Origin: a virus
Length of the DNA: 64,000 nt
Strand: one strand, 5' to 3'
IMG/VR virus record: IMGVR_UViG_3300005529_000003
Span: 1-64,000 of that record
Shown here piece by piece: positions 899 through 46,935 of this stretch (positions are counted from its first letter, which is position 1; each line of letters begins with the position of its first letter). A program made the translations under genes and the position numbers. The notes under the pieces are model-generated. The model was not told the origin of the DNA, ran no database searches, and saw nothing but the letters and a program-made list of their open reading frames with translations.

Positions 899-1138
899 AC
901 GAGGTTCCAGGCCCTCGCTGCTGATGGTATCAAACTGGCGATGTGGCGGCTTCTTTCAGAAGGCTTCAATATCGTTGCCATGATCCACGACGAACTCGTT
1001 GTGGAGTTGGAATCCTCAAGAGCCGACATACTCGCAGAACGAGTACAGAAGCTCATGCAGGATTCCATGTCTGAAGTTCTTGGGCATACTGTGCCCATCT
1101 CTACAGAGTTTCACGTCGCTGACTGCTGGACTAAGTGA
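1..1138 (+). CDS. polA: DNA polymerase I (family A), C-terminal part, interrupted by an intein (5' end outside window)
   Basis: The reading frame is open from the first base, so the gene starts upstream. The last 79 residues (899-1138) are the end of a family A DNA polymerase palm: the segment after the intein reads TRFQALAADGIKLAMW, and motif C is seen as IHDELVVE with the catalytic His-Asp-Glu. Everything before that in the window is intein. The polymerase motifs A and B and any exonuclease domain must lie upstream. It is the probable replicative polymerase of the phage. The intein sits just before the conserved Thr of the NT..Q..AADG.K segment, between motifs B and C, a position that cannot tolerate an unspliced insertion. 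Family assignment is secure; subfamily is not. Confidence 0.93.
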   Translation, partial: ELEWQHPTDLKFYPDYEGPLVEFSSKSMSAVSTPDHRWLVTDKTTGKDVCKLTSEISPAGHHTIHRTGKYFGSYVECFSNDFVELAGWFLTDGSCSLIPRKRVQHQPRVILCQSERGNPEKVKRIEDLILRMDILSSKYRQSQGGVVWYLKSSMAKKLHTLFPNRTLTPDFLLSLKKEQLHLLLNTMIDGDGCRSGGEITFACKEKERSDMFQFLCTLCGYASKATWRDMSMYTPRSPKINNIPNMTGYWYVRVLKRDKAQITVSQRREFTDKRPIWCPMVPNTYFVARRNEKVYITGNTRFQALAADGIKLAMWRLLSEGFNIVAMIHDELVVELESSRADILAERVQKLMQDSMSEVLGHTVPISTEFHVADCWTK

Positions 1139-1186
1139 AGTCCGCAAGCGACAATTTTACTTAACGAAAGAAAGGTCTTTCAAACA

Positions 1187-1480
1187 GTGTCTACTTCTAC
1201 TTCTACGACGACTCGTGCATCTCGCGCCTCGAAGGTCAACACCACCCAGGCCGCGGAGATGCTCGGCGTCCAGACTCGCACCTTCAAGCGGATCTGCGAG
1301 CGCGAGGGCATCACCCCCATCGCCTACGAGGGCGGTGCAATCTTCTACAAGCGGTCTGATGTCAACCGGCTGATCCGCCTGCGTGCGAAGGCTGCAAGAA
1401 CCGCCCGCCCCGCTCGCTCGACCGCGAATACGAACAACTCGACGCCGCATCCCTTCCATGCTACTCCGTCGATGTTCTGA
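1187..1480 (+). CDS. Helix-turn-helix DNA-binding protein (excisionase/MerR-like fold)
   Basis: 97 residues with a GTG start; an AAAGGT stretch lies about 10 nt upstream. After a Ser/Thr-rich leader, residues 18-70 read as a winged-helix of the excisionase/MerR class: VNTTQAAEMLGVQTRTFKR, then a wing-like segment ending FYKRSDVNRLI. The C-terminus is Ala/Arg-rich and low complexity. It may be a transcriptional regulator of the early region or a directionality factor; a second excisionase-like protein at 47190 is placed better for the latter job. No partner is visible; the next 600 nt hold no gene. Confidence 0.65.
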   Translation: MSTSTSTTTRASRASKVNTTQAAEMLGVQTRTFKRICEREGITPIAYEGGAIFYKRSDVNRLIRLRAKAARTARPARSTANTNNSTPHPFHATPSMF

Positions 1481-2086
1481 GATTGACGAAGTTCGTTCCC
1501 GAGAACAGGTTCGCACAGCGTAATTCGCGTACAAGTTTCCATCCGCGACTAAACGCAAGCTCTAAGAAGTCGTCGAAGGCCCGGAGCGCTTTCAGAGGTT
1601 GATTCACCTCTTCTCGGCACGATACACACGATTTTTAGAACGCCAACAGCAACTTCTTAAAACAATCTCCAATGTTGTGCCCACGGCGTTCTGTTGTTCT
1701 TTTAGTCGTCAACAGCTTCACGGCGGTTGATAAGATGTCGCAAGAAACAGGAGATGAAAAGATTGTGACATTGAGGTGAGTCACCATTAACCACAACTGC
1801 TCCGTTCGTTCATTCGACGAGGCACTCCTGGACGACTAAACTCATCCCCTCCGTTGCTTTGGCGGCGGAGTAGACGTCTGCGGCGTGGACAGCGTAGCGA
1901 GAAGTTCTGACCTTCTCGAATGGTACACGCGGTAGTGTAGTTGGGCTAATTGATCGCAGGGTCATCAAGCAGTCCTGGGACTCTCATGTCGAGCTTGAAT
2001 CTGACTACTTGCCAAAACAACAACACAAGAACTATGTTCATGAACTTGTGAGTCGGTGCAATTCCGATCGGACGTCTTTTACTTAC
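1481..2086. other. 606-nt gene-free leader region with structured RNA signal
   Basis: I see no convincing coding frame here. The region carries the hairpin at 1637-1692 that belongs to the ACAGCA RNA family (separate entry) and leads into two interrupted tRNA genes. Base composition is mixed. Other weak inverted repeats are present but none is strong enough to name. Confidence 0.5.
1637..1692 (+). ncRNA. ACAGCA-family structured RNA, minimal form (Y-RNA-like stem)
   Basis: An 8-bp closing stem AGAACGCC/GGCGTTCT is followed on its 5' side by one nucleotide and then ACAGCA, exactly the arrangement found in four - strand RNAs at 29.6-30.8 kb. Its first 20 nt are nearly the same as those of the copy at 29602-29648. 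The loop of roughly 40 nt contains a second weak helix (GCAAC with GTTG) and no tRNA-like arms. It is the only copy on the + strand. Transcription is not shown; function as a Ro-binding RNA is inferred from the family resemblance. Confidence 0.55.
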
Positions 2087-2237
2087 GCGGGTATAGCTCA
2101 GTTGGTTAGAGCGCGTGACTGATAATCACGAGGTCGGGCGCTGATCCCATAACGGAATTGATCACCTGTTATGAATCTAGGCGGCTACTATGAGGCATAT
2201 GACTCACAAGTAGATTGGTTCGACTCCCCCTACCCGC
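2087..2237 (+). tRNA. tRNA-Ile(GAT), interrupted by a 78-nt insertion in the T-stem
   Basis: A textbook tRNA 5' part: acceptor GCGGGTA, D-arm GCTCAGTTGGTTAGAGC, anticodon arm CGTGA-CTGATAA-TCACG with anticodon GAT, variable loop AGGTC, then GGG at 2136-2138. The rest, GG TTCGACT CCCCC and acceptor TACCCGC, resumes at 2217. Removing 2139-2216 restores a perfect 5-bp T-stem GGGGG/CCCCC and a 7-bp acceptor. The gene is therefore either spliced, non-functional, or tolerates an extra domain. No CCA is encoded. Confidence 0.88.
2139..2216 (+). other. 78-nt insertion (intron-like) inside tRNA-Ile
   Basis: It lies between positions 51 and 52 of the tRNA, splitting the T-stem GGG|GG. It can fold into two hairpins: CATAACGG...CCTGTTATG and CTACT-TGAG...CTCA-AGTAG. 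It is far too short for a group I or II intron and has no reading frame. The site is not the usual anticodon-loop position of bacterial tRNA introns. Confidence 0.7.
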
Positions 2238-2245
2238 TTTAAGAG

Positions 2246-2431
2246 TTTGGTGTGCGAAACGGAAAACGTAAACGTACCGACTTTCATTTTCATTCGTGTT
2301 TCTCGTCGAGCCCAAAGGATCGTGACACGGCCGATCACGACGAGAAACGAATACGAACGAACATGTTAACCCCGGAGCGGCCTAGAAGTCGGGAAGTATC
2401 GCCGCTTGAAGGTTCAACTCCTTCCACCAAA
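2246..2431 (+). tRNA. Probable tRNA-Leu(TAG), interrupted by a 99-nt insertion in the anticodon loop
   Basis: The acceptor TTTGGTG/CACCAAA pairs perfectly and extends to 10 bp with flanking GAG/CTC. The T-arm is GAAGG-TTCAACT-CCTTC. The anticodon stem CCGAC (2277-2281) pairs with GTCGG (2388-2392); joining CTT...TAGAA across the insertion gives a 7-nt loop TTTAGAA with U33, anticodon TAG and A37. A 15-nt variable arm (AAG...CTT) fits a class II leucine tRNA. The D-arm region contains a 6-nt tandem duplication (AACGTA twice) and is longer than normal. The short reading frames that overlap this stretch are ignored. Confidence 0.7.
2284..2382 (+). other. 99-nt insertion (intron-like) inside tRNA-Leu
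   Basis: It occupies the anticodon loop near position 33/34 (exact ends are ambiguous by one T). Most of it is one long imperfect hairpin, GTTTCTCGTCG paired with CGACGAGAAAC, holding a smaller TCGTGA/TCACGA stem. It has no reading frame and no recognisable group I core. Confidence 0.6.
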
Positions 2432-2469
2432 CTCTTTTCTTTCTCTTGTTCTCTATTGCGAAAGACCTA

Positions 2470-2649
2470 ATGAAAAGTCTCCTTTCCTTCCTTGGTGGCA
2501 AGAAGGCATATATCGGGGCTGTTGGCCTCGCCCTCGTTGCCCTCTTCCAGTACCTCAACGGCGATATGATGATCGCCTCGACGACGCTCTCCCAGGCAAT
2601 CAGTCTTGCTGGGCTGCGCCACGAGTTGCAGAAGACAACGTCAGCGTGA
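2470..2649 (+). CDS. Small membrane protein
   Basis: 59 residues from the ATG. Residues 11-30 form one hydrophobic helix (AYIGAVGLALVALFQYLNGD). It is the kind of small single-helix protein that phages use as holin or holin-like protein, but no endolysin gene is adjacent, so the role stays open. It directly follows the tRNA-Leu gene; a TTG start 24 nt upstream is less likely. Confidence 0.5.
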   Translation: MKSLLSFLGGKKAYIGAVGLALVALFQYLNGDMMIASTTLSQAISLAGLRHELQKTTSA

Positions 2650-2772
2650 GTCTTTGATTCACTCACGCCGACGCGAGAGTCGCGTGGCTGCGGTCGAGTG
2701 GTCCACACCTCCTCCCACGACGCCGCATAGAAGCAGATCTGAGTGTGAATCTCAAGAGCGCGACTTCTCGAT

Positions 2773-3000
2773 TTACTTTCTGTAACCTTTTCCGTCCACA
2801 TCGAGGTTGCGCTTTGGCTGCTTGTTGGTAATCTGAATATGCAGGGTGACATCTCCGACTGCGTGTGTTAAGCCCCAGTCGTCTTTCAACAAAGCAAGCA
2901 ACTCCTTGCAGAAGTCCTCTGGTGTGAACTCTCCGAGAAGATCGTAAGCGGCGTCAGAACCGCCGACCTCGTCCTCGACCCACGCTTCCACTTCAATCAC
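2773..3000 (-). CDS. Hypothetical acidic protein
   Basis: 75 residues on the strand opposite to its neighbours. The GTG start is chosen because AGGAG lies 6 nt upstream. The sequence begins VIEVEAWVEDEVGGSD and contains FTPEDFCKELLALLKDDW; I do not recognise the family. It is divergent from the PAPS-reductase-like gene, whose ATG lies 16 nt away, so the two must share a promoter region or overlap at their 5' ends. Confidence 0.5.
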   Translation of the reverse strand: MIEVEAWVEDEVGGSDAAYDLLGEFTPEDFCKELLALLKDDWGLTHAVGDVTLHIQITNKQPKRNLDVDGKGYRK

Positions 3001-3015
3001 GACGGACTCCTCTTT

Positions 3016-3903
3016 ATGAGTGATGTTAGTAACTGCTACTTGCTGGACCGTCCTGCGCGCATCGCCTTCTCTGGCGGCAGGACGAGCGGGTACATGCTCT
3101 ACCACGTCCTCCAGGCTTTCGGAGGAGTTCTACCTGACGACGTTCTAGTTACCTTCGCCAACACAGGCAAGGAGAGGGAAGAAACTTTACAGTTCGTCCA
3201 CGAATGCCAGAAGAGGTGGAACGTCTCTGTTCGCTGGATCGAGTACTGCCGCACACAGGCTCCTGTAGTTACGAAGAGCGGCAAGATCGGCTGTCATGGC
3301 TTCAAGGAAGTAGACTTCCACACAGCTTCGCGAAACGGCGAGCCCTTCGAGCAGATCATCGACGTCAAGGCAGAGTATCGACGTCTTTACAAGGAAGAGC
3401 CGCCGATCCTACCGAACGTGCCACAGAGGTACTGCACGGCCGAACTCAAGCAGCGGTCGATGAAGCGGTTCATGAAAGCCCTCGGCTTCGATGAGTACAC
3501 CGTCGCCATTGGTATTCGCCATGACGAACACTCGAGGATCGCCAAGCTCAAGGCCCTTAACGATTCGACAGAAGAGTACGTCGCTCCTCTAAACTCCGCG
3601 AAGGTCACAGAAGAGGACGTGATGAACTTCTGGGCCTCACAGCCCTTCGACCTTCAGCTACAGTCCTACGAGGGCAACTGCGACTTCTGTTTCCTCAAGA
3701 GCAAGGCGAAGATCTTCCGTCTGGCTGAGGAGCGCCCTGAAGGACTCGAGTGGTGGAGTCGTATGGAGCAGAAGACGGGGCAAACGTTTCGTAGAGACAG
3801 GCCGACTTACACCGACCTCAAAAACAAGAAGGTCGAGCTTCCGCTCTTCGCTGCGGCTGTTGCTTGCAACGATGATCAGGACACTTGCTTCTGTACCGAT
3901 TGA
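3016..3903 (+). CDS. PAPS reductase-like adenine nucleotide alpha hydrolase (PP-loop)
   Basis: 295 residues. The PP-loop SGGRTSG is at about residues 19-25, after a short leader, followed by FANTGKE, typical of the phosphoadenosine phosphosulfate reductase / adenine nucleotide alpha hydrolase superfamily. A Cys pair occurs as CDFCF near residue 222 and CFC near the C-terminus, so a metal site or Fe-S cluster is possible. Phage members of the family are common and mostly unassigned; roles in sulfur transfer to nucleic acid (as for DndC or thiolation enzymes) are conceivable but not shown. No Shine-Dalgarno sequence is seen before the ATG. Confidence 0.82.
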   Translation: MSDVSNCYLLDRPARIAFSGGRTSGYMLYHVLQAFGGVLPDDVLVTFANTGKEREETLQFVHECQKRWNVSVRWIEYCRTQAPVVTKSGKIGCHGFKEVDFHTASRNGEPFEQIIDVKAEYRRLYKEEPPILPNVPQRYCTAELKQRSMKRFMKALGFDEYTVAIGIRHDEHSRIAKLKALNDSTEEYVAPLNSAKVTEEDVMNFWASQPFDLQLQSYEGNCDFCFLKSKAKIFRLAEERPEGLEWWSRMEQKTGQTFRRDRPTYTDLKNKKVELPLFAAAVACNDDQDTCFCTD

Positions 3904-4042: not shown

Positions 4043-4111
4043 CGCGGGAGGGCGTAGTGCTCAATCGAGTCTCATAAACTCGAAATGCTTGGTGCGACTC
4101 CAAGGCCCGCG
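4043..4111 (+). tRNA. tRNA-Met-like(CAT) with minimal D-arm
   Basis: Anticodon arm CGAGT-CTCATAA-ACTCG is perfect and gives anticodon CAT; T-arm is CTTGG-TGCGACT-CCAAG; the acceptor CGCGGG pairs with CCCGCG. The whole is only 69 nt. The D-arm is reduced to GGGC-GTAGT-GCTC without the usual GG of the D-loop, and the T-loop starts TG instead of TT. It may be a working but reduced tRNA or a tRNA remnant. Confidence 0.6.
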
Positions 4112-4144
4112 ATTTCTTTTAATCTCGTCTTCAACGAAAGAATC

Positions 4145-32952: not shown

Positions 32953-33031
32953 AGGGCCGGCAGGAATCGAACCTGCCTTCGGCGTTGATTAGCTATATCG
33001 TCGCCTTAGTCTAGTTAGCACCAGCAACCCT
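32953..33031 (-). tRNA. tRNA-like gene, identity unclear
   Basis: A 79-nt element with a canonical T-arm GCAGG-TTCGATT-CCTGC and acceptor AGGGTTG/CGGCCCT (all seven pair, two as G-U). The middle does not fold into a standard D-arm (no GG) and the best anticodon arm has only a 3-bp stem around ATAGCTA. It may be a degenerate tRNA or another tRNA mimic. Note GGTGCT of its 5' part complements AGCACC-type sequence upstream. Confidence 0.45.
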
Positions 33032-33072
33032 ATAAAACCTCCCGACGCTTCTCTTGCGATGGCGTCGGGAGG
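33032..33072 (-). terminator. Rho-independent terminator
   Basis: CCTCCCGACGC pairs with GCGTCGGGAGG (11 bp, perfect) and is followed by TTTTAT on the - strand. It ends transcription of the 33150-34028 genes just before the tRNA-like element. Confidence 0.85.
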
Positions 33073-45452: not shown

Positions 45453-46700
45453 ATGACACACCACAAGAAGAAAAAGAAGCGTCGTGGAAGGGGCGAAGGA
45501 TCGATCTACAAGAGGGGCGACGGCCGGTGGGTCGCGATACTCGCTTCAGGGGAGGTTGACATTACAACGGGGAGGAAGAAGCGGAAGTACATCTACGCTG
45601 AGTCGAAGACAGAGGTCCTTCATCTTCTGGAAGATCACAAGGCGAAGTTAAAGGCGAAGCGTGTCGAGTCTCATGATAAGCGACTCCTTTGTGATTACCT
45701 CGACTCCTGGTTGGAGACGAAGAAACTTTCTGTAGAGAAACGGACACAGGAGTCGTACGAGTCGCATGTCCGCGTCCACATCAAGCCGAATCTCGGATCG
45801 ATCAAGCTGCAAGATCTGACTTCGCAGAACGTTCAGGACTTCTACTCAAAGCTCGTCAAGGATGGTGTCTCCTCGACGCAGGCGCGCAAGGTCGGGACGA
45901 CACTTGGAGTCGCCCTGGCGGACGCGGTGAGGGCCCGACATCTGCTAGTCAATCCCTCTGTCGGCATTCGCAAGCCCAAGAAGGTCTTCAAGGAGAGTGA
46001 AGTATGGGACGAGGAGCAGTTGCGTTCTTTTCTCGCCGCCGCAAAACAAGACGAACGGCACTGGCCTTTCTACTTGACGATGCTCGACAGTGGACTACGC
46101 CCCGGTGAGCTTTGGGCATTGCGTTGGTCCGACGTGAACCTCGAGTTGGGAATACTGACGATCCGCAGGGCGATTGAAGGCGGATTAGGACCAGTCGGCG
46201 TCAAGGCTCCCAAGACGTCAAAAGGTCGGCGAAATGTCGTTCTATCTCCGCCGACAGTTGCAGTCCTTCGTGAACTGAGAGAGAAACGGCTGTTAGCAGG
46301 CGCGAAGGAAACGGACCTCATCTTCTGCAACATCCGCGGCGGCTTCATGAGGTTCTCGAACTTCTATCGCGATTCATACAACCCCCTTCTGGAACGAGCG
46401 AACCTTCCTCACAAGCCGCTCTACACCCTCCGACACACATCCGCCACGCTCTTGCTCCTCCTGGGAGAGCCAGCGAAAATTGTCTCAGAGCGCCTTGGGC
46501 ACTCGACAACGAGGCTCACACTTGATACTTATAGTCATGTCCTCCCGTCCATGCAAAAGACGACAGCGGACAGGCTTGGCGGCCTGCTCGAGGGACTCAT
46601 GGCGAAGAAAGATTTGAAACCTTCAGAGGCCGACGGGGTTAATACTCGGGTTGTAGATGGCGGTCCCGGAGGCTGCAACTCAGCAGATGGACAAACGTAA
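45453..46700 (+). CDS. int: Tyrosine recombinase (phage integrase)
   Basis: 415 residues, GAGGAG upstream. N-terminal basic arm-type binding domain (GRGEGSIYKRGDGRWVAIL), SAM-like core-binding domain (residues 60-150), catalytic domain with Arg in SGLRPGELWALRW (about 215), Lys in APKTSKGRRNVVL, LRHTSA (about 326) and the nucleophile Tyr in DTYSHV (about 359). The residue two before the second Arg is Tyr/Thr instead of His. It inserts phage DNA at the tRNA-Lys-like site just downstream. Confidence 0.95.
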   Translation: MTHHKKKKKRRGRGEGSIYKRGDGRWVAILASGEVDITTGRKKRKYIYAESKTEVLHLLEDHKAKLKAKRVESHDKRLLCDYLDSWLETKKLSVEKRTQESYESHVRVHIKPNLGSIKLQDLTSQNVQDFYSKLVKDGVSSTQARKVGTTLGVALADAVRARHLLVNPSVGIRKPKKVFKESEVWDEEQLRSFLAAAKQDERHWPFYLTMLDSGLRPGELWALRWSDVNLELGILTIRRAIEGGLGPVGVKAPKTSKGRRNVVLSPPTVAVLRELREKRLLAGAKETDLIFCNIRGGFMRFSNFYRDSYNPLLERANLPHKPLYTLRHTSATLLLLLGEPAKIVSERLGHSTTRLTLDTYSHVLPSMQKTTADRLGGLLEGLMAKKDLKPSEADGVNTRVVDGGPGGCNSADGQT

Positions 46701-46743
46701 AGGACGACCAAGTCATGATGGCGCAAGGACTTACAGGCGCAGA

Positions 46744-46783
46744 AGGCGTAGCTCAGCTGGTAGAGCAACGGACTTTTAATCCC
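46744..46783 (+). other. attP: Probable attachment site: 5' two-thirds of a tRNA-Lys(TTT)
   Basis: Starts AAGGCGTAGCTCAG, D-arm GCTCAGCTGGTAGAGC, anticodon arm 5' strand ACGGA, loop CTTTTAA, then only TCC of the 3' strand before the match to a tRNA ends (CCACCAACAAC). No T-arm follows. It lies 43 nt after the integrase stop. Integrases that cross over in a tRNA anticodon loop leave exactly such a partial tRNA; here the phage would replace the 5' part of the host gene. Confidence 0.75.
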
Positions 46784-46935
46784 ACCAACAACTCCCGCAC
46801 TGACGACCTCCGATCGTCGCAAACCCTTCCGTTTTCCCTCATTTACAGCGATTTTGCTGGCATTTTCGATAGCGGCGGCTGCCACGATAAACGCCCCCTG
46901 TCCGACTTACAGGCTGTCAGTAAGCGGTCAACGCC

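Follow-up and report, generated by a model that had tools for sequence, protein, structure and literature searches.

A tRNA-Ile(GAT) gene with an insert in its T-stem lies between two further interrupted tRNA-type genes in a tailed phage

Introduction

A phage gene for tRNA-Ile(GAT) that carries 78 nucleotides inside its T-stem raises the question of how, or whether, its product is used. Either the virus relies on an RNA-splicing route not known in bacteria, or its tRNAs are dead, or they have a role outside translation. The gene lies near the start of a 64,000-nucleotide stretch of DNA (the window), which forms the beginning of the 94,830-base virus record IMGVR_UViG_3300005529_000003. Protein-dependent splicing of tRNAs is not known from bacteria, and their known tRNA introns are group I self-splicing ribozymes. 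In bacteria and phages these are much larger than the insert considered here and typically sit in the anticodon loop. Here we describe the interrupted gene and its neighbours, compare them with inserts in other phages and weigh the explanations for their origin and use.

The tRNA-Ile(GAT) gene and its insert

The gene occupies positions 2087 to 2238 on the plus strand, where the Rfam tRNA model RF00005 gave a match of 45.1 bits (E 2.3e-6, whole window searched) despite the insert. This match, the sole one of the Rfam tRNA model in the window, covers the 71 model positions in full and places a long insertion in the T-arm. The 5' exon (2087-2138, plus strand) holds the 5' strand of the acceptor stem (2087-2093), the D-arm (2096-2112), the anticodon arm (2114-2130, loop CTGATAA), the variable region (2131-2135) and the initial three T-stem bases, GGG (2136-2138). 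The 78-nt insert (2139-2216, plus strand) then interrupts the 5' strand of the T-stem after its third base, tRNA nucleotide 52. In the 3' exon (2217-2238, plus strand) the T-stem resumes with GG (2217-2218), followed by the T-loop TTCGACT (2219-2225), the 3' T-stem strand CCCCC (2226-2230), the 3' acceptor strand (2231-2237) and U73 at 2238. Both exons were delimited by the Rfam match and by ARAGORN run on the spliced sequence, and the insert by the tRNA that its exact excision restores.

Cutting out 2139-2216 exactly leaves a canonical 74-nt tRNA, called tRNA-Ile(gat) by ARAGORN, with all pairs present in the acceptor (7/7), D (4/4), anticodon (5/5) and T (5/5, GGGGG/CCCCC) stems. CCA is not encoded, and U73 is unusual for a tRNA-Ile. 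The boundary of the insert is unique, as a shift by one base in either direction disrupts the T-stem. The preliminary description of this DNA had placed the insertion in the T-stem and stated that its removal regenerates a perfect tRNA, and our analysis bears out both points. The anticodon fits the commonest Ile codon of the phage, ATC (73%). With default settings ARAGORN called no tRNA in the window, intact or otherwise. Its intron mode did report tRNA-Ile(gat) at 2087-2238 with a 78-nt intron, located near the anticodon loop; we rejected this site, which gives poor anticodon and T stems.

The insert folds into two hairpins with a predicted free energy of -21.4 kcal/mol (z -2.37), equally good folds being found in 5 of 200 shuffles, and it contains no sizeable open reading frame, in agreement with the preliminary account of a two-hairpin, non-coding element. 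When all tRNA stems were enforced, the predicted fold of the precursor lay just 4.3 kcal/mol over the optimum, with the junction of the insert on the T-stem. An equally good fit to the tRNA fold was reached by 1.5% of 78-mers drawn at random from this genome and by 8% of mononucleotide shuffles of the insert. Checking for a mobile element, we found no second copy of the insert in the 94.8-kb record or in the fetched loci.

Interrupted genes on either side

Interrupted tRNA-type genes adjoin the Ile gene on both sides, a Gln-like one on the left and a Leu-like one on the right, so that it is the central one of three in a row. Every stretch of 40 to 160 nt was removed in turn from each strand of the record, and the products were searched for tRNAs with ARAGORN. 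Apart from tRNA-Ile, two candidates came out of this excision scan directly next to it: tRNA-Gln(CTG), which begins at 1873, and a class II tRNA at 2245. A handful of further candidates, a Gly(tcc) at 28799 among them, lie inside coding sequence with mismatched stems and were set aside as background.

The tRNA-Gln(CTG)-like gene (1873-2076, plus strand), supported by the excision scan and the architecture test described below, has an 8-bp acceptor stem (GACGTCTG at 1873-1880 paired with CGGACGTC at 2069-2076), an anticodon arm at 1900-1916 (loop TTCTGAC), a T-arm at 2052-2068 (loop TGCAATT) and a weak D-arm. Its insert of about 130 nt (1923-2052, plus strand) falls in the interval between the anticodon arm and the T-arm, with ends that are ambiguous by several bases. 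The anticodon fits the commonest Gln codon of the phage, CAG (69%). The tRNA-Leu(TAG)-like gene (2245-2432, plus strand) was recognised from an inverted repeat and the same architecture test. Its acceptor strands (GTTTGGTG at 2245-2252 and CACCAAAC at 2425-2432) sit within a perfect 12-bp inverted repeat, 2241-2252/2425-2436, and enclose an anticodon stem (CCGAC at 2277-2281, GTCGG at 2388-2392), a variable region (2393-2407), a T-arm (2408-2424) and a non-canonical D-arm region. Here the insert is 99 nt long (2284-2382, plus strand) and interrupts the anticodon loop, the boundary being movable by one T. Whereas excision restores tRNA-Ile exactly, it restores these two tRNAs approximately; the D-arms of both are aberrant. 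Their amino-acid identity is only probable, and ARAGORN calls the right-hand gene tRNA-Ser, a reading in which the anticodon stem is poorer.

For the architecture test we required a T-arm with a 5-bp stem and a 7-nt loop fitting T[TG]CRANN, then a 7-nt acceptor strand with its partner at most 280 nt upstream. Across both strands of the 94.8-kb record this combination occurs at 1874-2075 and 2246-2431 only, against 0.31 per genome expected by chance from dinucleotide shuffles. With an anticodon arm added, the Gln-type architecture had a single occurrence in the record and none in 100 shuffled genomes, and the Leu-type architecture occurred only at the Leu-like gene, against 0.03 per shuffled genome; all these figures are somewhat overstated, as the criteria were set after both elements had been seen, while the excision scan is independent of them.

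The three inserts show no similarity to one another beyond that of shuffles, occupy three different tRNA positions and have no common splice signal that we could see. Rfam found no ribozyme or riboswitch in them, the tRNA model being the only one to hit 1130-3100 at E values up to 10. Three adjacent tRNAs, each interrupted differently, argue against a single accidental insertion. The preliminary description had posed a choice between a splicing route and a tRNA with an extra domain. That dilemma was fairly drawn, but the interrupted neighbours on each side had been missed, and the position of the Ile gene in the middle of the three both weakens a reading as accident and raises the stakes.

Two other tRNA-like elements were observed in the window. 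A tRNA-Met(CAT)-like element at 4043-4112 (plus strand) is uninterrupted, with an aberrant D-arm and the T-loop TGCGACT; it shares with the T-arm at 2052-2068 a T-loop with TGC for TTC, that is G at position 55. On the minus strand, 32953-33033 has a perfect T-arm (GCAGG-TTCGATT-CCTGC) and the acceptor AGGGTTG/CGGCCCT together with an overlong anticodon arm and an odd D-arm; both ARAGORN and Rfam are silent on it.

The phage and its probable host group

The record belongs to a tailed phage, with an integrase (45453-46700), a terminase and a class II ribonucleotide reductase. At 26598-27299 it encodes a TIGR02996 domain (rpt_mate_G_obs), named after Gemmata obscuriglobus. Directly after the integrase gene, 46742-46837 corresponds to the 5' part of a tRNA-Lys(TTT) through the anticodon stem. 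This fragment matches Gemmataceae and other planctomycetes, and also Gemmatimonadota and others, and is probably the attachment site of the phage. The host is likely, though not proven, to be a planctomycete of the Gemmata group. We found no close phage relatives among viral contigs with the PAPS-reductase-like protein, the class II ribonucleotide reductase or the capsid, and none among phages or genome contigs with the terminase. The window also contains the C-terminal part of DNA polymerase A, preceded by a LAGLIDADG-type, intein-like element (83-1138), and on the minus strand genes for a DUF7788/DUF2828 protein (27596-29257) and a NADAR-family protein (TIGR02464, 41629-42138).

Candidate routes for cutting and joining

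Archaeal and eukaryal tRNA splicing requires a bulge-helix-bulge motif and an EndA-type endonuclease. The preliminary description had mentioned bulge-helix-bulge introns as the archaeal type known at this position. Our results make it very improbable that the insert is such an intron, cut by a splicing endonuclease of the EndA family. The Ile gene does permit one relaxed pairing with 3-nt bulges. However, relaxed pairings of this type occur at 55% of random site pairs, the sites of the Ile gene show no excess over this, and even the best of its pairings would set the cuts at the bulge edges. In the likely host group, sampled by 95 genomes around Gemmata, no member of the EndA family was found, nor was one found in any of ten phage records (that of the window and nine other intron-bearing ones), whereas all four archaeal control genomes were positive. 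Archaeal introns do resemble the insert in being short and in occupying non-canonical tRNA positions that extend to the T-arm, including 53/54, 56/57 and 59/60 (PMC4090602).

A group I intron is excluded by the size of the insert and the absence of an Rfam group I match, and here the preliminary view that this is not one of the larger self-splicing bacterial introns was upheld. No match to tmRNA was obtained for the window with either Rfam or ARAGORN. Of the 95 genomes around Gemmata, 72 encode RtcB, the ligase that in archaea and in animals seals the halves of tRNAs (PMC3400036, PMC8668186). In the phage record itself we found no RNA ligase, RtcB included.

Inserts in other phages and in planctomycetes

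We searched viral contigs for tRNAs with an abnormal distance between D-arm and T-loop, limiting the scans for T-stem inserts to tRNAs with AGCTCAG D-arms. No insert of the T-stem type was found among the at least 119 stretches listed with a gap of 51-81, nor among the 58 stretches of a complete scan with a gap of 40-70; two sequences left by the filters proved on inspection to be a normal tRNA and a tandem pair. In 392 Planctomycetota genomes, scanned under the same D-arm limit, there were likewise no T-stem inserts, two hits being tandem tRNAs by inspection.

The viral contigs did contain a family of structured tRNA inserts of about 50-70 nt after nucleotide 28 or 29, in the anticodon stem. 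These occur in Asn, Cys, Arg and Ile tRNAs, and their removal leaves perfect or near-perfect stems. Several have the 3' end TTACTT in common and a GNRA-type hairpin, and the stem of the insert shows two-sided (covarying) changes that a slid control did not reproduce. Examples, in our locus numbering, are L142:10401-10491, L199:94-417, L275:2095-2417, L276:895-1215, L087:4132-4222, L273:6161-6252 and L158:147-270 (alignments A1 and A2). In L199, L275 and L276 like inserts are found in both the Asn and the Cys tRNA of one phage. The search for homologues advised earlier thus returned no T-stem insert, but it did return structured tRNA inserts in other phages. A covariance model of this family (R1) hits only 2103-2138 in the window, within the Ile exon, and since it matches exon only, the inserts of the window are not members.

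Among the five intron-bearing records longer than 150 kb, four encode RtcB (L142, L272, L276 and L277) and the fifth a T4-type RNA ligase (L133), and L158 encodes RtcB on the same 11-kb contig as its tRNA intron. RtcB was present in two of 18 large tRNA-bearing control phages. That anticodon-stem tRNA introns accompany a phage RNA ligase is only suggestive, the positive records being mostly related rather than independent.

Discussion

We propose that the inserts of the Gln-CTG, Ile-GAT and Leu-TAG cluster leave the transcript so that the tRNAs fold and work, and we give this reading a probability of roughly 0.45. The tRNA parts would fold around the structured insert, a candidate nuclease or ribozyme activity would cut at both of its ends, and an RtcB-type ligase from the planctomycete host would join the exons. 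The tRNA would afterwards be finished by RNase P, RNase Z and the addition of CCA. Such a route would amount to protein-dependent or self-cleaving tRNA splicing in bacteria, without the archaeal or eukaryal splicing endonuclease. We favour cutting by some activity with sealing by host RtcB because EndA is absent from the genomes and phage records searched, a group I intron is excluded and RtcB is widespread in the likely host group. Counting towards excision are the canonical tRNA-Ile left by exact removal, the two interrupted tRNA-type genes adjoining it, an insert in the Ile gene whose structure exceeds that of shuffles and which leaves the tRNA fold more intact than do 98.5% of 78-mers drawn at random from the genome, the match of the Ile and Gln anticodons to the commonest phage Ile and Gln codons, and the RtcB of the likely host group. 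By analogy, the RtcB or T4-type ligases of other intron-bearing phages may be added, as may an independent report of phage tRNA introns (PMC6784885). Against excision stand the inserts' lack of an Rfam match and of a shared sequence or position, a phage record without a ligase, a U73 atypical for Ile, and the aberrant Gln and Leu D-arms with a Gln-like T-loop of TGC and not TTC, which decay would yield likewise.

A serious rival to splicing, if a less probable one, is that the array is a relic. The three genes and the Met-like element would then be insertion-broken, drifting tRNAs, with the otherwise perfect Ile gene as the most recent casualty. Aberrant D-arms in the Gln-, Leu- and Met-like elements and G at position 55 in two T-loops would fit this history, as would inserts unrelated to one another, a T-stem insert with no counterpart found in other phages and hence no conservation, and a window in which default ARAGORN finds no intact tRNA. 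It would nevertheless be a peculiar decay that gave each of three neighbours one insertion of 78 to about 130 nt and retained the acceptor, anticodon and T-stem pairing throughout, with acceptor stems of 8 to 12 unbroken pairs and an Ile insert that is structured and compatible with the tRNA fold. We consider it unlikely that the RNAs act unspliced, after the manner of tmRNA: the acceptor and T-arm would then be the handles by which the RNA is processed or bound by proteins, and the insert would be a functional domain, perhaps a decoy, a regulator or a packaging element. The Gln- and Leu-like elements do look like tRNA-ended RNAs of about 190-200 nt with an insertion, comparable to tmRNA, and the small cost of enforcing the tRNA stems in the Ile precursor, with the junction on the T-stem, is also consistent with an unspliced RNA. 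Yet the Ile insert divides the T-stem that such RNAs need whole, the canonical anticodon, D-arm and acceptor of tRNA-Ile would not be required without an adaptor role, and no Rfam match to tmRNA or another family was obtained. The anatomy is what we observe in the DNA; splicing, decay and unspliced use are readings of it.

Splicing of the cluster would have partial precedents. The preliminary description knew of T-arm introns from archaea only, but algal nucleomorph tRNAs carry T-arm introns whose excision has been demonstrated experimentally (PMC4090602); these lie in the same arm as our insert and differ from it in being 3 nt long and in using the eukaryotic splicing machinery. Nor are tRNA introns unheard of in phages. 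Those of the Lak megaphages, called 'enigmatic', were the first in phages known to their authors (Devoto et al. 2019, PMC6784885), and a 2026 survey describes introns in the tRNAs of jumbo phages that use alternative codes (PMC13037316). With these the window has in common short inserts in phage tRNA genes, bacterial hosts and an obscure route for any excision. There, however, most of the 30 or more tRNAs are free of inserts, and some inserts reportedly contain a tRNA, whereas the window has three adjacent tRNA-type genes that are interrupted, Ile within its T-stem. The anticodon-stem introns described above are also short and structured, and restore perfect or near-perfect tRNAs on excision, but they follow nucleotide 28 or 29, mostly with the TTACTT end and the covarying stem, and not nucleotide 52. 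We came across no description of a long T-stem insert in a tRNA of phages or bacteria in the limited literature searched.

It is conceivable, though less likely than not, that bacteria and phages share a general tRNA splicing route, as yet unrecognised, which is independent of the endonuclease, removes short structured inserts at various positions and relies on RtcB- or T4-type ligases for sealing. The window would then present three cases of it in a row, one of which may be the first T-stem insert of such length in a bacterial system. Should the tRNAs be dead, the cluster would still be a clear case of a tRNA array decaying by insertion. Interrupted tRNAs escape the default tRNA finders, so that phage tRNA counts would be underestimates. 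If phage tRNAs with inserts of 50-130 nt are spliced without the splicing endonuclease, a new nuclease or small ribozyme would exist, and RtcB, an enzyme without a clear role in many bacteria, would have in these tRNAs a natural substrate for both its bacterial and its phage forms.
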